A stretch of DNA of 64,000 bases from Halosimplex salinum (GTDB lineage: Archaea > Halobacteriota > Halobacteria > Halobacteriales > Haloarculaceae). Below the pieces are notes generated by a model. It ran no database searches and was not told the DNA's origin. It saw only the letters and a program-made list of their open reading frames with translations. The translations under genes were made by a program, and so were the position numbers. Positions 30,264-38,183 of this stretch are shown piece by piece. The first letter of the stretch is position 1, and each line of letters opens with the position of its first letter. The stretch lies in NCBI RefSeq assembly GCF_003730195.1, contig NZ_QWGG01000003.1, forward strand, positions 124,001-188,000, in the 5' to 3' direction.

Positions 30264-30317
30264 GCGGACCGAGATTCCGTTGCGGACCGAGGTGCCGGCG
30301 CGGACCGAAGCGCCGTC
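30264..30317. repeat. Tandem repeat, 18-base unit, three copies
   Basis: Units at 30264, 30282 and 30300 begin GCGGACCGA and vary in the second half. The last unit touches the stop codon of the nicotinate phosphoribosyltransferase gene at 30316-30318. Confidence 0.8.
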
Positions 30318-31491
30318 AGTCCTCGGAGTCGCCCACCGGCGCTTCGAACCCGACCGCGTCCGCGTCCTCGGCGGCGCGGTCGACGGCCGCGTCCAGGTCG
30401 AAGTCGCGCACTCTCTCCCCGTCGCGGATCAGCGGCTGGAGGAGTCGTTCGCCGCCCTCGGGGCCCTCGCGGTCGGCCAGCGCGACGTGGTGGCCGCCGT
30501 CGTCGGTCCGGTACACCGCCTTCTTCCCCGTGAGCTTCCCGCGCTTGGCGGCCAGTTCGCCGTCGACCTCGACGATGTCGAGCGCGAAGTCGACCGGGTC
30601 GGCGTTGCTGACGTGGCCCCCGACGCCGAACCCCTCGACGTACTCGCGGAGGTCGCGGAGTTCCGTCGGGCCGAGCCCGCCGCTGACGAAGATTCCCACG
30701 TCGTCGAACCCTTCGGCGTCGAGCGTCCAGCGCACCTCGCGAACGATGTGTTCGAAGTCCCCTCTGCGCGAGGCGGTCGTGTCGATCCGGACGGAGTCGA
30801 GCGCGTCGACGGCCTCCGCGGCGCGGAGCGACTCGTCGACCTCGTCGGAGTACGTGTCCGTGAGTGCGATCCGCGGCACGTCCTCGCCGACGGCCTCGTC
30901 GAACGCCCGCCACGCGGCCTCCTGCTGGCCGCGACCGAAGCAGATCACGAGCGCGTGTGGCATCGTCCCGCCGGCCTCGCGACCGACCACCTCGCCCGCC
31001 GCGACGTTCGAGATGCCGTCGAGTCCACCGATCAGCGCCGAGCGTTCGACCATCGCACCGATCGACGGGTGGACGTGTCGCGACCCGAAGCTCAGGACGG
31101 TCGAGTCGGGCGCCGCACGGCGGGCCTCGAGCGCGGCGGTCGCGACGCCGGTCGCGTGCGAGAGGAAGCCCAGCAGTGCGGTCTCCAGCCGGCAAAATTC
31201 GAGGTACGGCCCCTCGATTCGCATGACCGGCCCGCCGTCGAACAGTCGCCCCTCTCGCATCGCGTCGACGTCGACGGCTCGCCCCTCGAGGAGGCGCGCG
31301 GCGTCCGTGACGCCCGCGAGGAGTTCCCACTCGCCGGTGGGGAACTGGTCGGCCGTCACTTCGGCGACGACGCGGGGGTTCCGGTCGGCGTGTTCCAGCG
31401 TCTCGACCGTCCGGTCGAAGTAGGCGTCGGTGGCTCGCCCCTCCCTGATCGCTTCTGGCGGGACGATGTCGAAGCCCGACTCGTCGGTCAT
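30316..31491 (-). CDS. Nicotinate phosphoribosyltransferase (archaeal type)
   Basis: From the ATG at 31489-31491 (MTDESGFDIVP) the protein has 391 residues; the open frame extends further but runs into a tandem repeat. The sequence has the family's TDAYFDRTVETLE, the EGRLFDGGPVMRIEGPY region, SFGSRHVHPSIGAMVERSALIGG and VFVSGGLGP-like IFVSGGLGPTEL, followed by GFGVGGHVSNADPVDF. The short archaeal/QAPRTase-fold form converts nicotinate and PRPP to nicotinate mononucleotide in NAD salvage. GKLTGKKAVYR is typical. It fits with the isochorismatase-family gene downstream as a possible nicotinamidase. Confidence 0.88.
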   Translation of the reverse strand: MTDESGFDIVPPEAIREGRATDAYFDRTVETLEHADRNPRVVAEVTADQFPTGEWELLAGVTDAARLLEGRAVDVDAMREGRLFDGGPVMRIEGPYLEFCRLETALLGFLSHATGVATAALEARRAAPDSTVLSFGSRHVHPSIGAMVERSALIGGLDGISNVAAGEVVGREAGGTMPHALVICFGRGQQEAAWRAFDEAVGEDVPRIALTDTYSDEVDESLRAAEAVDALDSVRIDTTASRRGDFEHIVREVRWTLDAEGFDDVGIFVSGGLGPTELRDLREYVEGFGVGGHVSNADPVDFALDIVEVDGELAAKRGKLTGKKAVYRTDDGGHHVALADREGPEGGERLLQPLIRDGERVRDFDLDAAVDRAAEDADAVGFEAPVGDSED

Positions 31492-31584
31492 GTCGTGGTG
31501 TACCGCGGCATCCGACAAAAACGGTCCGCGTTCGATGCGTCCGATCCCCCGGAGTGGCCGAGACGGAAAGAACTGCGACCGCAG

Positions 31585-31656
31585 ACGGAGACGAAACCGC
31601 GAACGGAGACGAAACCGCGAACGGAGACGAAACCGCGAACGGAGACGAAACCGCGA
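31585..31656. repeat. Tandem repeat, 18-base unit, four perfect copies
   Basis: ACGGAGACGAAACCGCGA is repeated exactly four times without spacers (31585-31656), in the 401-base spacer 31492-31892 between the nicotinate phosphoribosyltransferase gene and the lipoprotein gene. It is followed five bases later by the repeat copy C. Not a CRISPR array, as there are no spacers. Confidence 0.9.
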
Positions 31657-31661
31657 ACAGC

Positions 31662-31826
31662 GTGAAAGCCCCGGGCCGTCTGGCTCGGGGGCCTCGTTGC
31701 GCTCCTCGGCCTTCGGCCTGCGGTGCTTACTTCGTCCGCCTTCGCCAGACGCCCCGCCCCTTTCATTCCCACCCATACAGACTGTCGAATCATCCGAAAC
31801 GGACGGAAATGAAAGGGGGCTTTCAC
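31662..31826 (-). repeat. Dispersed repeat, copy C, with 11-base inverted ends
   Basis: The segment is bounded by perfect 11-base inverted repeats: GTGAAAGCCCC at 31662-31672 and GGGGCTTTCAC at 31816-31826. On the minus strand it reads TGAAAGGGGCGGGGCG, then GTAAGCACCGCAG, GGAGCGCAACGAG and GGGGCTTTC, matching the second half of copy B block by block. The inner segment also has an 8-base inverted pair (CGTCTGGC and GCCAGACG). Such pairs could fold an RNA or mark a small non-autonomous element. No gene is seen in it. Confidence 0.75.
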
Positions 31827-31892: not shown

Positions 31893-33248
31893 CTATCCCG
31901 CTCGAGAGTGAACGTCGTCGAGGTCGTCGACGGTCGGGGCGTTGACGACCCGGACGGTGTCGCCGTTCCGGACGACGCGGAAGGCGTCGTCGAAGTCGTC
32001 GTAGTCGGGGACGACGTACACGTTCTCGCGGGGGTTGCTGGCGTCGTGTTCGTCGAGGACGTCCAGATAGGCCTCGTGGAACTGCTTCGCGTCCTGCTCG
32101 GAGTCCCAGACGGTCTTCCAGACGTACGCGCCGGTCTCGCCGTTCGTGTAGGGGACGACGCTATCCCCGCCCCAGCCGGCGGACGGTTTCGACTGGTAGC
32201 TGTAGCGGTCTTCGGGGTCTACGGCGTCGTTGTGGACGAACATCGCGTAGATGGACGCCTCGCCCACCGTGTCCGCGACGGGGTCGTGGTCGAAGCGGTC
32301 CCACTCGCCGTTCGAGCGGTCGGCGACCGTCACGTTCACCGGCCGCTCGTCGGGGTACCTGTTCCGATGGATGATCTGTTCGGTGCTCGCCGGGCGCGCG
32401 TCGTAGAGGTCGTCGACGCTGTCCCACCCTCCGTCGGAGCGGACGCCGTCGACGAACCGCGACCCGGCGGCGTAGGGGGTGTAGATGGTCAGGAACAGCC
32501 CGCGGTTGTACTCGCCGCCGCCCGACCCGCCACCGCCGTCGCTGGGCGGTTCGGGGATGCACGACCACTGCGAGCCACAGCGGTTCGTGTAGAGCACGTC
32601 GACGTAGCGGGCGTCGCCCTCGGTGACGCCGCGGTTCGCGAGCTGCCGGTCCTGCGTCTCGCCGTCGGACCCGAAGCCGAAGTGCTGGTCCTGGAGCGCG
32701 TGGACGAGTTCGTGAGCCAGCGTCGCCCTGTCGATGGTGGGCGTCTCCGAGTCGCTGACGAGGACGATGGAGTCCTTCCCGGGCGAGTAGTACCCCTGCA
32801 CGCTCTGGCCGAGCGTCTCGTCGCTACTGTTCGAGTACGAGGAACGCTCGCCGACGATAAAGAGCGACTCCCAGACCTGGTCGTTCCAGCGCTCGTAGGT
32901 CGCCGAGCCGTTGCCACCGCCGGTCCGGTTCTCGAGGTACTGCTCGCGCGAGATCACGTCGACGGGGACCGTCTCGTTGAACTCGAGGTCGCGGATCCGC
33001 TCGACGCGAGCCATCGTCCGGGCGACGACGGCCTCGCGCTCGCTGGCGTTGTACCCGTCTTCGGGCGTGACCGACACCGGGTCGTCGTACCAGTAGCCGT
33101 TCTCCCAGCCGATGCGGTCGCCGGCGGGGTCGCCCGGCGGGTGGCCGCCGAGCGACTCCAGCCCTGCACAGCCGGCCAGGAGCGCGAGCGCGACGACTCC
33201 GGCCAGCACGAGTCGCGCGCGGTTCGCGTCCGATCCCTCGCGTACCAT
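31893..33248 (-). CDS. Hvo_1808-family surface lipoprotein with zincin motif
   Basis: 451 residues. The N-terminus is a lipoprotein signal: a basic start, LVLAGVVALALLAGC and the lipobox Cys at 27. The body has the recognisable pattern RIGWENGYWYDD, EFNETVPVDVISREQYL and QGYYSPGKDSIVLVS, then the zincin motif HELVH at 179-183 in LAHELVHALQDQHF, with VTEGDARYV about 26 residues further on, where E210 is placed as a third ligand. This looks like an extracytoplasmic metallopeptidase-type fold, though activity is not shown. C224 and C230 (RCGSQWSC) probably form a disulfide. It lies nine bases downstream of a paralogue, so the two are co-transcribed. Confidence 0.8.
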   Translation of the reverse strand: MVREGSDANRARLVLAGVVALALLAGCAGLESLGGHPPGDPAGDRIGWENGYWYDDPVSVTPEDGYNASEREAVVARTMARVERIRDLEFNETVPVDVISREQYLENRTGGGNGSATYERWNDQVWESLFIVGERSSYSNSSDETLGQSVQGYYSPGKDSIVLVSDSETPTIDRATLAHELVHALQDQHFGFGSDGETQDRQLANRGVTEGDARYVDVLYTNRCGSQWSCIPEPPSDGGGGSGGGEYNRGLFLTIYTPYAAGSRFVDGVRSDGGWDSVDDLYDARPASTEQIIHRNRYPDERPVNVTVADRSNGEWDRFDHDPVADTVGEASIYAMFVHNDAVDPEDRYSYQSKPSAGWGGDSVVPYTNGETGAYVWKTVWDSEQDAKQFHEAYLDVLDEHDASNPRENVYVVPDYDDFDDAFRVVRNGDTVRVVNAPTVDDLDDVHSRAG

Positions 33249-33257
33249 CGGGGGAAC

Positions 33258-35081
33258 TCACTCCCACCGACGCAGTGCCACACCGGCGAGCGCGACGGCG
33301 ACGAGCGCGACCGCGAGGCCGAAGCCGGCACCGGAGCCAGAGGCGGTGGTCTCCGTCTCGGCGTCGGTCGACTCACCGTCGCTATCGCCGTCACCCATCC
33401 CGCCGTCGTCGGCCATCGGTTCGTCGGTGGCCGTCGCGGTGTCGGTCGACGGTTCGTCGGTCGCAGTCGCAGTGTCGGTCGACGGTTCCTCGGTCGCGGT
33501 GTCGGTCGGCGTCGACTCCGCTTCCGGCGCGGCGCCGGCGCGGACATCGCTCAGTTGGTCGACCGAGGGCGCGTTGACGAGCGTCACGGTCGTCCCGGTG
33601 TGGTTGACGTAGAAGGCGTCCTCGTACTGCCCGTCGGCGATCCGGTAGGTGTTCGCGCGCTCGTCGACGGGTTCGGCGCCGTAGTAGTCGAGCAGCATCG
33701 AGTACCCCTCGACGAAGTCCGCCGCGTCGTCCTCGGAGTCCCAGACGGTCTTCCAGACGTAGCCGGTCTCGTTGGTCTCGGCGGAGTCGTCGGTGACGTA
33801 GGGGTAGAGCGTGTCACCGTCCCAGCCGTCGGTGTACTGCGTCGAGTAGTTGATCGGGTCGGTGGCGCTGAGCTGACCACCGGCGGTGATGTTGAAGAAC
33901 GAGCGCTGTCCGACCACTGGCGTCTCCGTCCGGCCGGAGTCGTAGAACGGGTAGAACAGCATGGTCGCGAGGCCGGCCTCGCCGAACTGCGCGTAGTCGA
34001 CGGTCCCGTTCTCGATCTGGGGCACGGACCACTCCTCGCTGGACCGGTCGGTGACGCTCACGTTCGTCGGTTCGTCCTCGCCGTACTTCTCGGGGTAGAT
34101 CGTCTGTTCCGTGCTGGCCGGCGGGTTCTCGTAGACGGCGTTGACGCCCTCCCAGCCCTCGCTCCGGTAGATGCTCCGCACGAAGTTCGGCCCGTCGCTG
34201 TAGGGCTGGTAGGTCAGCAGGTACATGCCGTAGTGGATCGAGGTGGTCCCGCCGCCACCGCCGCCAGCCGAGGACTCGGGGAGCAGACAGTTCCACTCGG
34301 CCATGCAGCGCTCACTGTACAGACGGTCGACGAAGTTGCCGTCTCCCTCGATGATGCCGTCGCGCGCGTTGTGGAGTTCCTCCGTGTGTTGCTCGAACGC
34401 GGAGATGTTGAACCGCTGGTCCTGCAGCGCGTGGAACAGCTCCTGCGAGAGGGTCACCTCGTTCATCTTCGGCGAGGTGGTGTTCTCCGAGACGATCACG
34501 ATCCGTTCCTCGCGGGGACTGTAGTAGCCGCCGACGGTCGAACCGACGTTCTGCTCCTGGACCGAGATGGCGTCGGTGTCCTCGCCGACCATCAGCATGG
34601 CCTCCCACTTGACGTTCTGGTGGAGGGTGTCGTTGGTCGTCGTGTTGTACTGCCTCGTGCTGCGGAACTCCTCGCGGGAGATGACCTCGACCGGGACCGT
34701 CTCGTTGAACTCCAGTTCGCGGATCTGTTCGACGCGGGCCATGGCGCGGCCGACGACGGCGTCGAGTTCCGTGTCGTTGAGGCCGTCCGACCGGTCGACG
34801 TCGATCGACTCGTTGTACCAGCAGCCGTTCTCCCAGCCGAGTCGGTCGCTGTCGGGGTCGTCGGGCGCCGTCCCGTTGGCGACGGGCGCGCACGCGTCAC
34901 CGGTCTGGACGGTCGACCGCTCGGTCGCGTCGGCGTCGGCGTCGTTCGGGGACCTGTCCGTCGTCGCGTCGTCTACCGGCACGGCGTCGTCGGCCGGTGT
35001 CGCGGCGCCCGCGGCGGGGACCGCGGCCACCACGGACAGCACCATCACACAGGCGACGACGACCGAGAGGGCGGTACGCAT
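33258..35081 (-). CDS. Hvo_1808-family surface protein with degenerate zincin motif
   Basis: From the ATG at 35079-35081 (MRTALSVVVACVMVL) the protein has 607 residues: a Sec signal peptide ending in AAGA and then the same core as its neighbour (RLGWENGCWYNES, EFNETVPVEVISREEF, GGYYSPREERIVIVS). Where the neighbour has HELVH, this one has QELFH (about residues 213-217), so the first zinc ligand is lost while E, the second H and the later IIEGDGNF glutamate remain. A Thr/Asp-rich stalk of about 70 residues leads to a C-terminal helix with GAGFGLAVALVAVALAG and RRWE, close to the PGF-CTERM anchor pattern processed by archaeosortase. Probably cell-surface anchored. Role unknown; a binding protein derived from a protease is plausible. 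Confidence 0.78.
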   Translation of the reverse strand: MRTALSVVVACVMVLSVVAAVPAAGAATPADDAVPVDDATTDRSPNDADADATERSTVQTGDACAPVANGTAPDDPDSDRLGWENGCWYNESIDVDRSDGLNDTELDAVVGRAMARVEQIRELEFNETVPVEVISREEFRSTRQYNTTTNDTLHQNVKWEAMLMVGEDTDAISVQEQNVGSTVGGYYSPREERIVIVSENTTSPKMNEVTLSQELFHALQDQRFNISAFEQHTEELHNARDGIIEGDGNFVDRLYSERCMAEWNCLLPESSAGGGGGGTTSIHYGMYLLTYQPYSDGPNFVRSIYRSEGWEGVNAVYENPPASTEQTIYPEKYGEDEPTNVSVTDRSSEEWSVPQIENGTVDYAQFGEAGLATMLFYPFYDSGRTETPVVGQRSFFNITAGGQLSATDPINYSTQYTDGWDGDTLYPYVTDDSAETNETGYVWKTVWDSEDDAADFVEGYSMLLDYYGAEPVDERANTYRIADGQYEDAFYVNHTGTTVTLVNAPSVDQLSDVRAGAAPEAESTPTDTATEEPSTDTATATDEPSTDTATATDEPMADDGGMGDGDSDGESTDAETETTASGSGAGFGLAVALVAVALAGVALRRWE

Positions 35082-35108
35082 GTCTACCGGGACCATGGGG
35101 TGGGTAGC

Positions 35109-36073: not shown

Positions 36074-36436
36074 CTAGCAGCACTCCTCGTCGCGCTCCAT
36101 CGCCCACTCGACGAGTGGCCGGAGTCGCTCACCGAGTTCCTCGCCCTCGTCGCTGAGTTCGTACTCGACGCGCGGCGGGATCTCCGCGTAGCGCTCGCGC
36201 TCTACCAGCCCCGCCTCCACGAGTTCGTCCAGTCGCGTCGACAGCGTCGACGTGCTCGCCCCCGGGAGATGCGCCTCGATCTCGCCGAACCGCACCGTCC
36301 CGTGGTTGGCGACGACGCAGACGACGTCCATCACGTACTTCTTCCCGAGCAGGGCCATCGGCTCCGAGAGCAGACAGTGACACGCCGGATCCGCGCACTC
36401 ACAGCCGGTCTCCGCCATCGCTTCGGTGTCTCCCAT
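36074..36436 (-). CDS. HxlR-family regulator with N-terminal Cys cluster
   Basis: 120 residues. A winged helix covers about 25-110: LLGKKYVMDVVCVVANHG, RFGEIEAHLPGASTSTLSTRLDELVEAGLVERE, and VEYELSDEGEELG. The Cys residues stand out: C12, C14, C19, C21 (CEC and CHC), C40 and a final CC. HxlR proteins usually have one sensing Cys near the N-terminus; this cluster looks like a metal or thiol-reactive sensor. It is divergent from a MerB-like gene with 58 bases between the ATGs, the usual arrangement of a regulator with its target. That it senses mercurials is inferred. Confidence 0.8.
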   Translation of the reverse strand: MGDTEAMAETGCECADPACHCLLSEPMALLGKKYVMDVVCVVANHGTVRFGEIEAHLPGASTSTLSTRLDELVEAGLVERERYAEIPPRVEYELSDEGEELGERLRPLVEWAMERDEECC

Positions 36437-36460
36437 TGGATTCGATACTTTGGACTTGAC

Positions 36461-36472
36461 AGCTTAATAGCT
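36461..36472. promoter_or_regulatory. Near-palindromic TATA box shared by the divergent HxlR and MerB-like genes
   Basis: AGCTTAATAGCT is close to its own reverse complement and lies midway: its centre is about 28 bases before the MerB-like ATG (36495) and about 30 before the HxlR ATG (36436). Both are proper archaeal TATA-to-start distances for leaderless transcripts. One box may serve both strands, and an HxlR dimer binding here would shut both genes. Confidence 0.55.
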
Positions 36473-36494
36473 TTGCTCTCCGAACTATAGACGC

Positions 36495-37151
36495 ATGTGG
36501 ACTGAAGTAGACGGATCAGACAGTATCGGGCCGAAGCTATCGCTCGCCGACGTGGTCCTCCCGCCGGCGGTCGGCGACGGGTTCGCCGGCCTGTACGGGA
36601 GCGCCGAGCGGCCGGAGACCGCCGCCGAGTGGGTCGCGGACATGCGCGGGGCGATCGAGCGGGAGTACGACCGAACGCCCACCGTCGACGACCTCTGTAC
36701 GGTCGAGGACGGCGACCACGCGTTCGTCGGCGCGGACGGCGCGCAGACGTACATCTGCGTGCTCGACCCGCTCGCCTACCCGTTCCTGACCGGCGAGACG
36801 GGGACGGTCCGCTCGACGACGCCCGTCCGCGGGACCGAGGTCGAGTTCGAGGTCCGCGCCGACGGCGTGGGCGTCTCGCACGACGACGCGGTCGTGTCCA
36901 TCGGCATCTCAGAGGGGGTCGACGGCGACGAGGTGTCGATAGAGCGGGTGTACCAGGAGGTCTGCGGGTTCGTCCAGACCTTCGAAGACGATGCGGAGTA
37001 CGAGGAGTGGGCCGCCGAGGCCGACGGAGCGACGACGGCCGTCCCGGCCCGCGAGGGCGTCGCGATAGCACGCGAACTGGCCGACGCGCTGTTCGAAGAG
37101 GGCGCACAGCGCCCCGGCGGCGGGTGCAGTCCCGACGGCGGCTGCTGCTGA
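36495..37151 (+). CDS. MerB-like organomercurial lyase family protein
   Basis: 218 residues. The central part has TYICVLDPLAYPFLTGETGTV; in E. coli MerB the same place reads CALD with catalytic C96 and D99. Here they are C88 and D91. Later VYQEVCGFVQTFEDDAEYEEWAAE aligns with the MerB strand carrying C159, giving C157; the following helix (PAREGVAIARELADALF) also matches. So all three residues that break the C-Hg bond are present. The N-terminus (LPPAVGDGFAGLYG) takes the place of the MerB helical domain. The last 12 residues contain GGGCSPDGGCC, a likely metal-binding tail absent from classical MerB. No merA is in the window. The family also includes members of unknown substrate. Confidence 0.75.
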   Translation: MWTEVDGSDSIGPKLSLADVVLPPAVGDGFAGLYGSAERPETAAEWVADMRGAIEREYDRTPTVDDLCTVEDGDHAFVGADGAQTYICVLDPLAYPFLTGETGTVRSTTPVRGTEVEFEVRADGVGVSHDDAVVSIGISEGVDGDEVSIERVYQEVCGFVQTFEDDAEYEEWAAEADGATTAVPAREGVAIARELADALFEEGAQRPGGGCSPDGGCC

Positions 37152-37205: not shown

Positions 37206-38183
37206 TCAGTGCTGGCCGTCGCCGTTCGTGATCGTGGTGTGGGCGCCGATGAGCGCGCCCGCGAGGTCGAGGTTCTCGAGGTGCGTCTCGCGGTCGATGA
37301 TCGAGTCACGGATGTCGCAGTCCCGGACCGTCGCCTCGGGGAAGACGACCGAGCCGTCGAGGTGGGAGTCGACGACCTCGGCGTCCGCGAGGACGTGGAC
37401 GTTCTCGCCGAGGTCCGTCCCGTCGAGGGTCGCGCTCTCGGCGACCTGGTTCGCGCCGTCGAGGTACCACGCGACCGCGTCGAGGTAGCTCTCGGGCGTC
37501 CCGATGTCGAACCACGCCTCGTCGAACACGTAGGCGTAGACGGAGTCGTGCTCGACGAGCCACTGGACGAACCAGCCGGGCTCGTCGGGGTTGTTGCCGT
37601 CCGCGAGGTACTCCTCGAACCGCACCTGGTCGGCGGGGAAGACGTAGCAGGCGATCGAGACGAGCGTGCTGTTGGGGTCGTCGGGCTTCTCCTGGAAGTC
37701 GACGACCTCGTCGCCATCCAGCGTGACGAGCCCGTACGACCGGGCTTTCTCCAGCGACCCCACGTCGTAGGCCGCGAGCGTCGTACTGCCGTGTTCCTCG
37801 TAGCTGTCGAGGAAGTCGCTCACGTCGAAGCTGATGAGGTTGTCGCCGGCGATCACGAACAAGTCGTCGTCGTCGATCCCCTCGCGGTCGACGAGCTGTG
37901 CGAGCGCGCCGATGACGCCGAACTTCTCGTCCTCGTCCGTGGTGTCCTCGACGGAGAGCTGGGCCTTCTCGTAGTCGTGCTCGGCGAGGTGGGCCCTGAA
38001 CTCCGGCGCGAACCGCTCGTTCGTGCTGATGTACACGTCCTCGATCCGGTCGTCGGACTCGAGTTCCGTGAGCACCCGGTCGATGACGGTCGTCTCACCC
38101 ACTGGCAACATCATCTTCGGCCGATGGCGCGTGATCGGCCAGAGCCGCGTGGCGTAGCCGCCCGCGAGTACGACAGCGTCCAT
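37206..38183 (-). CDS. NDP-sugar synthase / nucleotidyltransferase
   Basis: 325 residues. The N-terminal Rossmann-like domain begins AVVLAGGYATRLWPITRHRPKMMLPVG; the family signature is GGxGTRL...KP, here with YA for xG and K in PKMMLPVG. FVIAGDNLISFDVSDF supplies the metal-binding GD. The C-terminal part ends with left-handed beta-helix hexapeptide repeats (NVHVLADAEVVDSHL, SVVFPEATVRDCDIRDSII). It should activate a sugar-1-phosphate with UTP or dTTP, for glycan or S-layer N-glycosylation; the substrate is unknown. Monocistronic, divergent from 38340. Confidence 0.85.
   Translation of the reverse strand: MDAVVLAGGYATRLWPITRHRPKMMLPVGETTVIDRVLTELESDDRIEDVYISTNERFAPEFRAHLAEHDYEKAQLSVEDTTDEDEKFGVIGALAQLVDREGIDDDDLFVIAGDNLISFDVSDFLDSYEEHGSTTLAAYDVGSLEKARSYGLVTLDGDEVVDFQEKPDDPNSTLVSIACYVFPADQVRFEEYLADGNNPDEPGWFVQWLVEHDSVYAYVFDEAWFDIGTPESYLDAVAWYLDGANQVAESATLDGTDLGENVHVLADAEVVDSHLDGSVVFPEATVRDCDIRDSIIDRETHLENLDLAGALIGAHTTITNGDGQH

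Follow-up and report, generated by a model that had tools for sequence, protein, structure and literature searches.

What does a pair of back-to-back, cysteine-bearing genes, one resembling the organomercurial lyase MerB and the other an HxlR-type regulator, do in the haloarchaeon Halosimplex salinum? We analysed the 64,000-nucleotide stretch of contig NZ_QWGG01000003.1 that carries the pair (the window, to which positions refer unless a locus is named). The two open reading frames are as an earlier note on this DNA described them: the MerB-family gene (36495–37151, + strand) encodes 218 amino acids ending in GGGCSPDGGCC, and the regulator gene (36074–36436, − strand) encodes 120 amino acids that include CEC and CHC and end in CC. 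They diverge across 58 bp. The note had read them as a compact archaeal organometal-detoxification switch under one promoter box, a proposal that is supported by the fold, the active-site triad, the conserved divergent pair and the conserved intergenic element described below.

The MerB-like protein falls within Pfam MerB (PF03243; 4.4e-15, 56.2 bits against a gathering cut-off of 27), at scores far below the cut-offs of the NCBIfam models for canonical MerB equivalogs (NF009710, 50 versus 193 bits; NF033555, 45.6 versus 200 bits). Its AlphaFold model (pLDDT 88; input alignment of 33 sequences) gave strong matches in the PDB to MerB structures only (Foldseek and VIA-align; Z 11–14.6), with a best superposition of Z 14.6 and an rmsd of 2.7 over 146 residues; the next fold match, NosL, was weak (Z about 4). 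In a phmmer alignment against the PDB, C88, D91 and C157 pair with the Cys, Asp and Cys of MerB, which are C96, D99 and C159, the same correspondence that the note had drawn. The numbers C96 and D99 come from counting residues in the printed alignment, and the third residue is taken as C159 because it is the Cys that precedes position 160, which is mutated in 3f2g. Two of the checks that had been proposed for this protein, an HMM search and structure prediction, agree with MerB, the latter at the level of the fold and the triad alignment.

Across the 33 aligned sequences, the counterparts of C88 (codon 36756–36758, + strand) and D91 (36765–36767, + strand) are kept in 32 rows and that of C157 (36963–36965, + strand) in all 33; H75 (32 rows) and C68 (30 rows) are also retained. 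One relative (L042:6041–6763) lacks the counterparts of C88 and D91, keeps that of C157 and has a CNCC tail; judged by these residues it is likely to be non-catalytic. The column of MerB C117 holds Thr109 here, Thr or Ser in 28 of the 33 rows and Cys in two. C117 stabilizes MerB and is not catalytic, and its replacement weakens the case for placing the protein in the canonical MerB group, with its Pfam assignment unaffected. A Cys at this position was one of the signatures used in a 2021 survey (PMC8261052). The window protein resembles known MerB (PDB 3f0o, 3f2f and 1s6l) in fold and triad, and differs from it in sequence (about 20% identity), in Thr109, in an LC68...H75 motif, in the Cys tail seen in Halosimplex and in a setting outside a merR operon. 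We regard it as a candidate methylmercury-splitting enzyme that is probably active as a lyase.

The divergent gene encodes an HxlR-family protein (Pfam HxlR, PF01638; 2e-21, 76.1 bits; gathering cut-off 20.8), for which the closest NCBIfam models, the redox regulators RrpA and RrpB, scored below their cut-offs. It matches solved HxlR/DUF24 regulators (HxlR, YodB and QsrR; PDB 7bzd, 5hs7 and 4hqm) in having the winged-helix HxlR domain, and differs from them in its membership of a mer-linked group with an invariant CxC and in its predicted targets in this genome, merA and merB. Of 54 HxlR proteins placed in a tree, 37 have a link to merB, merA or the CC gene described below; a branch supported at 100/99 separates these 37 from 17 other HxlR proteins, which come from five genomes. 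Two sequences (L111 and L169), with which the groups were blurred, were omitted from the final tree because they formed very long branches or came from wrong reading frames. The Cys clusters singled out in the earlier note are indeed present, but across 34 aligned regulators C19 and C21 alone are invariant; C19-H-C21 (36374–36382, − strand) is the candidate sensor site.

The near-palindromic TATA box that had been reported midway between the genes is there: the near-palindrome AGCTTAATAGCT lies between the two ATGs, and the TATA-like CTTAATA (36463–36469), common to both genes and conserved within the element, is about 29 nt from each of them. It overlaps a core operator-like element, ACTTTGGACTTGACAGCTTAA (36447–36467, + strand), that is conserved in the class and forms part of an extended conserved element (36447–36486; column conservation over 31 sites) with an outer ACTTYG...CAAAGT inverted repeat, of which the window copy is imperfect (right arm CGAACT). 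Searched as ACTTYGGACTYNNNAGYWYAA with up to two mismatches, the element has exactly two sites in the 5.07-Mb genome, one in the merB and one in the merA intergenic region. At both sites it overlaps a TATA box that is about 29 nt away from the start codons; a reversed control pattern had zero matches in the same genome. In haloarchaea, TATA boxes are placed about 27 nt upstream of the transcription start and leaderless mRNAs are common; given the spacing here, both transcripts may begin at the ATG, and a regulator bound at this TATA-overlapping element should block both promoters. Sigma-70 and terminator scans, whose models do not cover archaea, returned zero matches.

As ACTTYGGACTYNNNAGYWYAA was derived from merB- and merA-type loci, the informative part of wider searches is its other matches. 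Across 146 Haloarculaceae genomes the pattern, with up to one mismatch, had 54 sites (reversed pattern, 5), of which 46 are near independently found merA or merB matches. Two more adjoin further merB genes; they stand at identical coordinates in their two genomes and are perhaps duplicates. Another four lie between an HxlR gene and the gene for a CC protein of ~112 amino acids, so that after inspection 52 of the 54 sites adjoin merA, merB or the CC gene and two adjoin none of them. In genomes outside the family, which were not used to derive the pattern, 45 of 53 distinct sites (duplicates removed) adjoin one of these genes: 23 merA with HxlR, 12 merB (8 with HxlR within 150 bp) and 10 the HxlR–CC gene pair. 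The remaining 8 adjoin none of them, and three of these are one variant repeated within a single genome. Conservation extends beyond the searched 21-mer, into AACTTYG and CAAAGT.

The window locus is not a classical MerR-type mer operon, in which merR stands with merA, merT or merP beside merB; none of these four genes was recognized among the reading frames read around the locus. The note's statement that merA is missing holds for the window and fails for the genome, in which contig 5 encodes a merA above the TIGR02053 mercury(II) reductase equivalog cut-off (524 versus 454 bits), with a GGTCVNVGC motif and a C-terminal MSCC. This merA diverges from a paralogous HxlR gene (P0004) with the same element between them, an arrangement that points to ordinary mercury chemistry and removes the ground on which a chemistry different from that of mer operons had been suggested. 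Downstream of it (L060:8693–12069) is a second disulfide oxidoreductase that scores above the dihydrolipoyl dehydrogenase cut-off, a tandem that recurs in other genomes (L089 and L090).

The H. salinum genome has one MerB gene, and a MerB relative is present in 37 of the 146 Haloarculaceae genomes. The HxlR–merB pair, divergent or adjacent, occurs in nine genera; every locus of the closest group (L002–L019) has a divergent HxlR beside merB, and HxlR adjoins most members of a second merB subfamily. Conservation of the gene pair, triad and intergenic element in other genera places the original observation beyond chance. Named genomes yielded zero matches when scanned with the single MerB-like protein and ten named loci with an alignment query; where plasmids of Haloarcula, Halobacterium and Halorussus have an annotated merB, a helix-turn-helix gene that matches the HxlR query lies nearby. 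The merA–HxlR pair is likewise repeated across Haloarculaceae and on named plasmids, the enzyme of which bears the annotation mercury(II) reductase. On Haloarcula marismortui pNG600, for example, such a merA is divergent from a helix-turn-helix gene that belongs to this HxlR group, and differs from the window locus in being plasmid-borne, in having MerA as the output and in a regulator annotated just as a helix-turn-helix protein. Genome by genome, co-selection of merA and merB in Haloarculaceae was not supported (7 genomes with both, p = 0.62). The majority of MerB hosts lack merA, and because co-occurrence is not above chance many of them must have another way of disposing of Hg2+. The 2021 survey noted the same for about half of the genomes that encode MerB (PMC8261052).

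A different MerB in another Halosimplex genome (G090; L054:6266–12569) is clustered with merA, an ArsR-type regulator, a second oxidoreductase, an HTH_10 regulator and CC-bearing membrane proteins; no HxlR is part of this cluster, which ties the MerB family to mercury independently of HxlR.

The cysteine tails stressed in the earlier note are present on both proteins, and their reach is narrow. That of the MerB-like protein (residues 207–218; 37113–37148, + strand) is poorly ordered in the model (pLDDT below 60). Among aligned pairs of the close group, a terminal CC on MerB and regulator together was found in four Halosimplex pairs only, and other relatives of the pair lack a tail, end in a Cys tail of another kind or carry a Cys cluster at the N terminus. 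On the aligned sequences, the terminal tails of the pair are a genus-level trait of Halosimplex.

The ~112-amino-acid CC protein (L141:1132–1470, L143:1552–1890, L149:1552–1890, L136:1133–1477, L113:10396–10728 and L118:5533–5871) has a conserved C12 and C68-C69, is encoded divergently from or near an HxlR of the mer clade and has the element in several loci, and we consider it a candidate third member of the regulon. It had zero matches in Pfam and NCBIfam, and its model (pLDDT 78) had no significant match in the PDB; distant bacterial homologues lie near ars genes or within a MerR-annotated protein. Some merB– and merA–HxlR loci also have a neighbouring gene for a transporter, BASS-type or Na+-dependent, or for an 'arsenic resistance protein' (L118:4752–5531, L182:2976–3899, L114:10736–11662 and L116:3174–4175); these are possible efflux partners.

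In the window, a sugar nucleotidyltransferase-like gene (37206–38183, − strand) adjoins merB and appears to recur at several chromosomal merB–HxlR loci, which suggests that the locus is old and vertically kept; antisense reading frames in GC-rich DNA added noise to the comparison of neighbouring genes, from which we accepted the nucleotidyltransferase side alone. The window also encodes two similar tandem proteins (31893–33248 and 33258–35096, − strand), the first with AHELVHALQDQHF, an HExxH-like metalloprotease motif, and the second with a related SQELFHALQDQRF. At about 31560–31680 there are in-frame tandem repeats (DETANG, + strand; RFRLRS, − strand) at the 5′ end of the reading frame 30316–31776.

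With family membership, fold, conserved triad, divergent pair, merB/merA element and regulator grouping established, we think it quite probable that the pair belongs, as one module, to a mercury regulon of haloarchaea that HxlR-type repressors control, with MerB as the organomercurial lyase. Weighing against this reading are the low scores with the NCBIfam MerB models, the Thr in place of C117, the co-occurrence of merA and merB at no more than chance level and the transporters near some related loci. Since the outputs are merA and merB, mercury is the presumed inducer. The HxlR protein would act as a thiol-based repressor on the TATA-overlapping element that merB has in common with hxlR itself; mercury, organic or as Hg2+, would bind the invariant CxC, possibly together with C40, and release the repressor, whereupon both hxlR and merB would be transcribed, perhaps as leaderless mRNAs. 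In MerB, C88, C157 and D91 would then bring about protonation of the carbon–mercury bond, yielding a hydrocarbon and Hg2+. The Hg2+ would pass to thiols, in Halosimplex perhaps first to those of the disordered Cys tail, and in H. salinum subsequently to the MerA encoded on the other contig.

Three other explanations deserve weight, the least improbable of which is a general response to soft metals and metalloids. The signal for the HxlR clade would then be arsenite, antimonite or any metal that reacts with thiols, the substrates of the MerB-like enzyme would be organoarsenicals or similar compounds, and merA would be one output among several. The BASS-type or 'arsenic resistance' transporters that adjoin some merA/merB–HxlR loci make a wider metal(loid) role possible, and a bacterial homologue of the CC protein adjoins an ACR3 arsenite exporter; against this, the two sites in the H. 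salinum genome are at merB and merA with no others, and merA is the commonest neighbour of the element outside the family (23 of 53 sites). We consider this explanation unlikely.

Distinctly less probable is a redox or electrophile switch whose regulator senses oxidants, quinones or aldehydes through its cysteines, MerB being induced as a by-product or for another substrate. HxlR relatives of known role are redox or aldehyde sensors, and RrpA and RrpB are the nearest models even though below cut-off, yet the genome-wide sites stand at merA and merB rather than at redox genes, and the mer-linked clade, with its CxC, is separate from the 17 other HxlR proteins. Marginally the least probable is that the MerB-like protein binds mercury or other metals and is not a lyase, with the triad buffering metal that the Cys tail passes on. 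Such a role would fit the identity of about 20% to MerB, the lost C117 counterpart, the Cys-rich tail, the absence of merA from most hosts and the one relative that retains C157 without C88 and D91; against it stands the retention of D91, for which binding alone would have no need, in 32 of 33 sequences alongside C88 and C157.

Of the parts of the favoured mercury regulon, MerB and merA are of known kinds: haloarchaeal merA and a few merB genes have been reported (PMC3600143 and PMC8261052), and the 2021 survey described methylmercury demethylation as not previously known in Archaea (PMC8261052). The link between HxlR and mer genes is the new part relative to the literature covered: no paper in it contained both MerB and HxlR, and those containing HxlR and mercury look unrelated, judged by their titles and abstracts. 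Described mer operons have MerR or ArsR regulators (PMC3466566). Like the ArsR-type MerR of Sulfolobus and bacterial MerR, the HxlR protein adjoins mercury-resistance genes (PMC3466566), and it differs in belonging to another protein family and in having one element common to unlinked merA and merB.

The HxlR group and its DNA site at mer genes point to a mercury-response system so far undescribed. In the broader form of this reading, towards which the balance tips slightly, these HxlR proteins would be an unrecognized class of mercury sensor controlling a haloarchaeal regulon of merA, several merB subfamilies and the ~112-amino-acid CC protein through one TATA-overlapping element; in Halosimplex, terminal CC tails would have been acquired by MerB and its regulator alike and may serve to hand mercury on, in hosts mostly without MerA. 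The regulator group and a single diagnostic element make the haloarchaeal mercury response directly testable and help to find mer genes that annotation has missed. Mercury-resistance genes were reported absent from Halomicroarcula strains including F13 (PMC8600319); yet G025 (L175), a genome matching Halomicroarcula rubra F13, carries two copies of merA and two merB-like genes, and has merA and merB loci with the element. The finding is relevant, too, to the way in which hosts that have MerB and no MerA handle the Hg2+ that they release.
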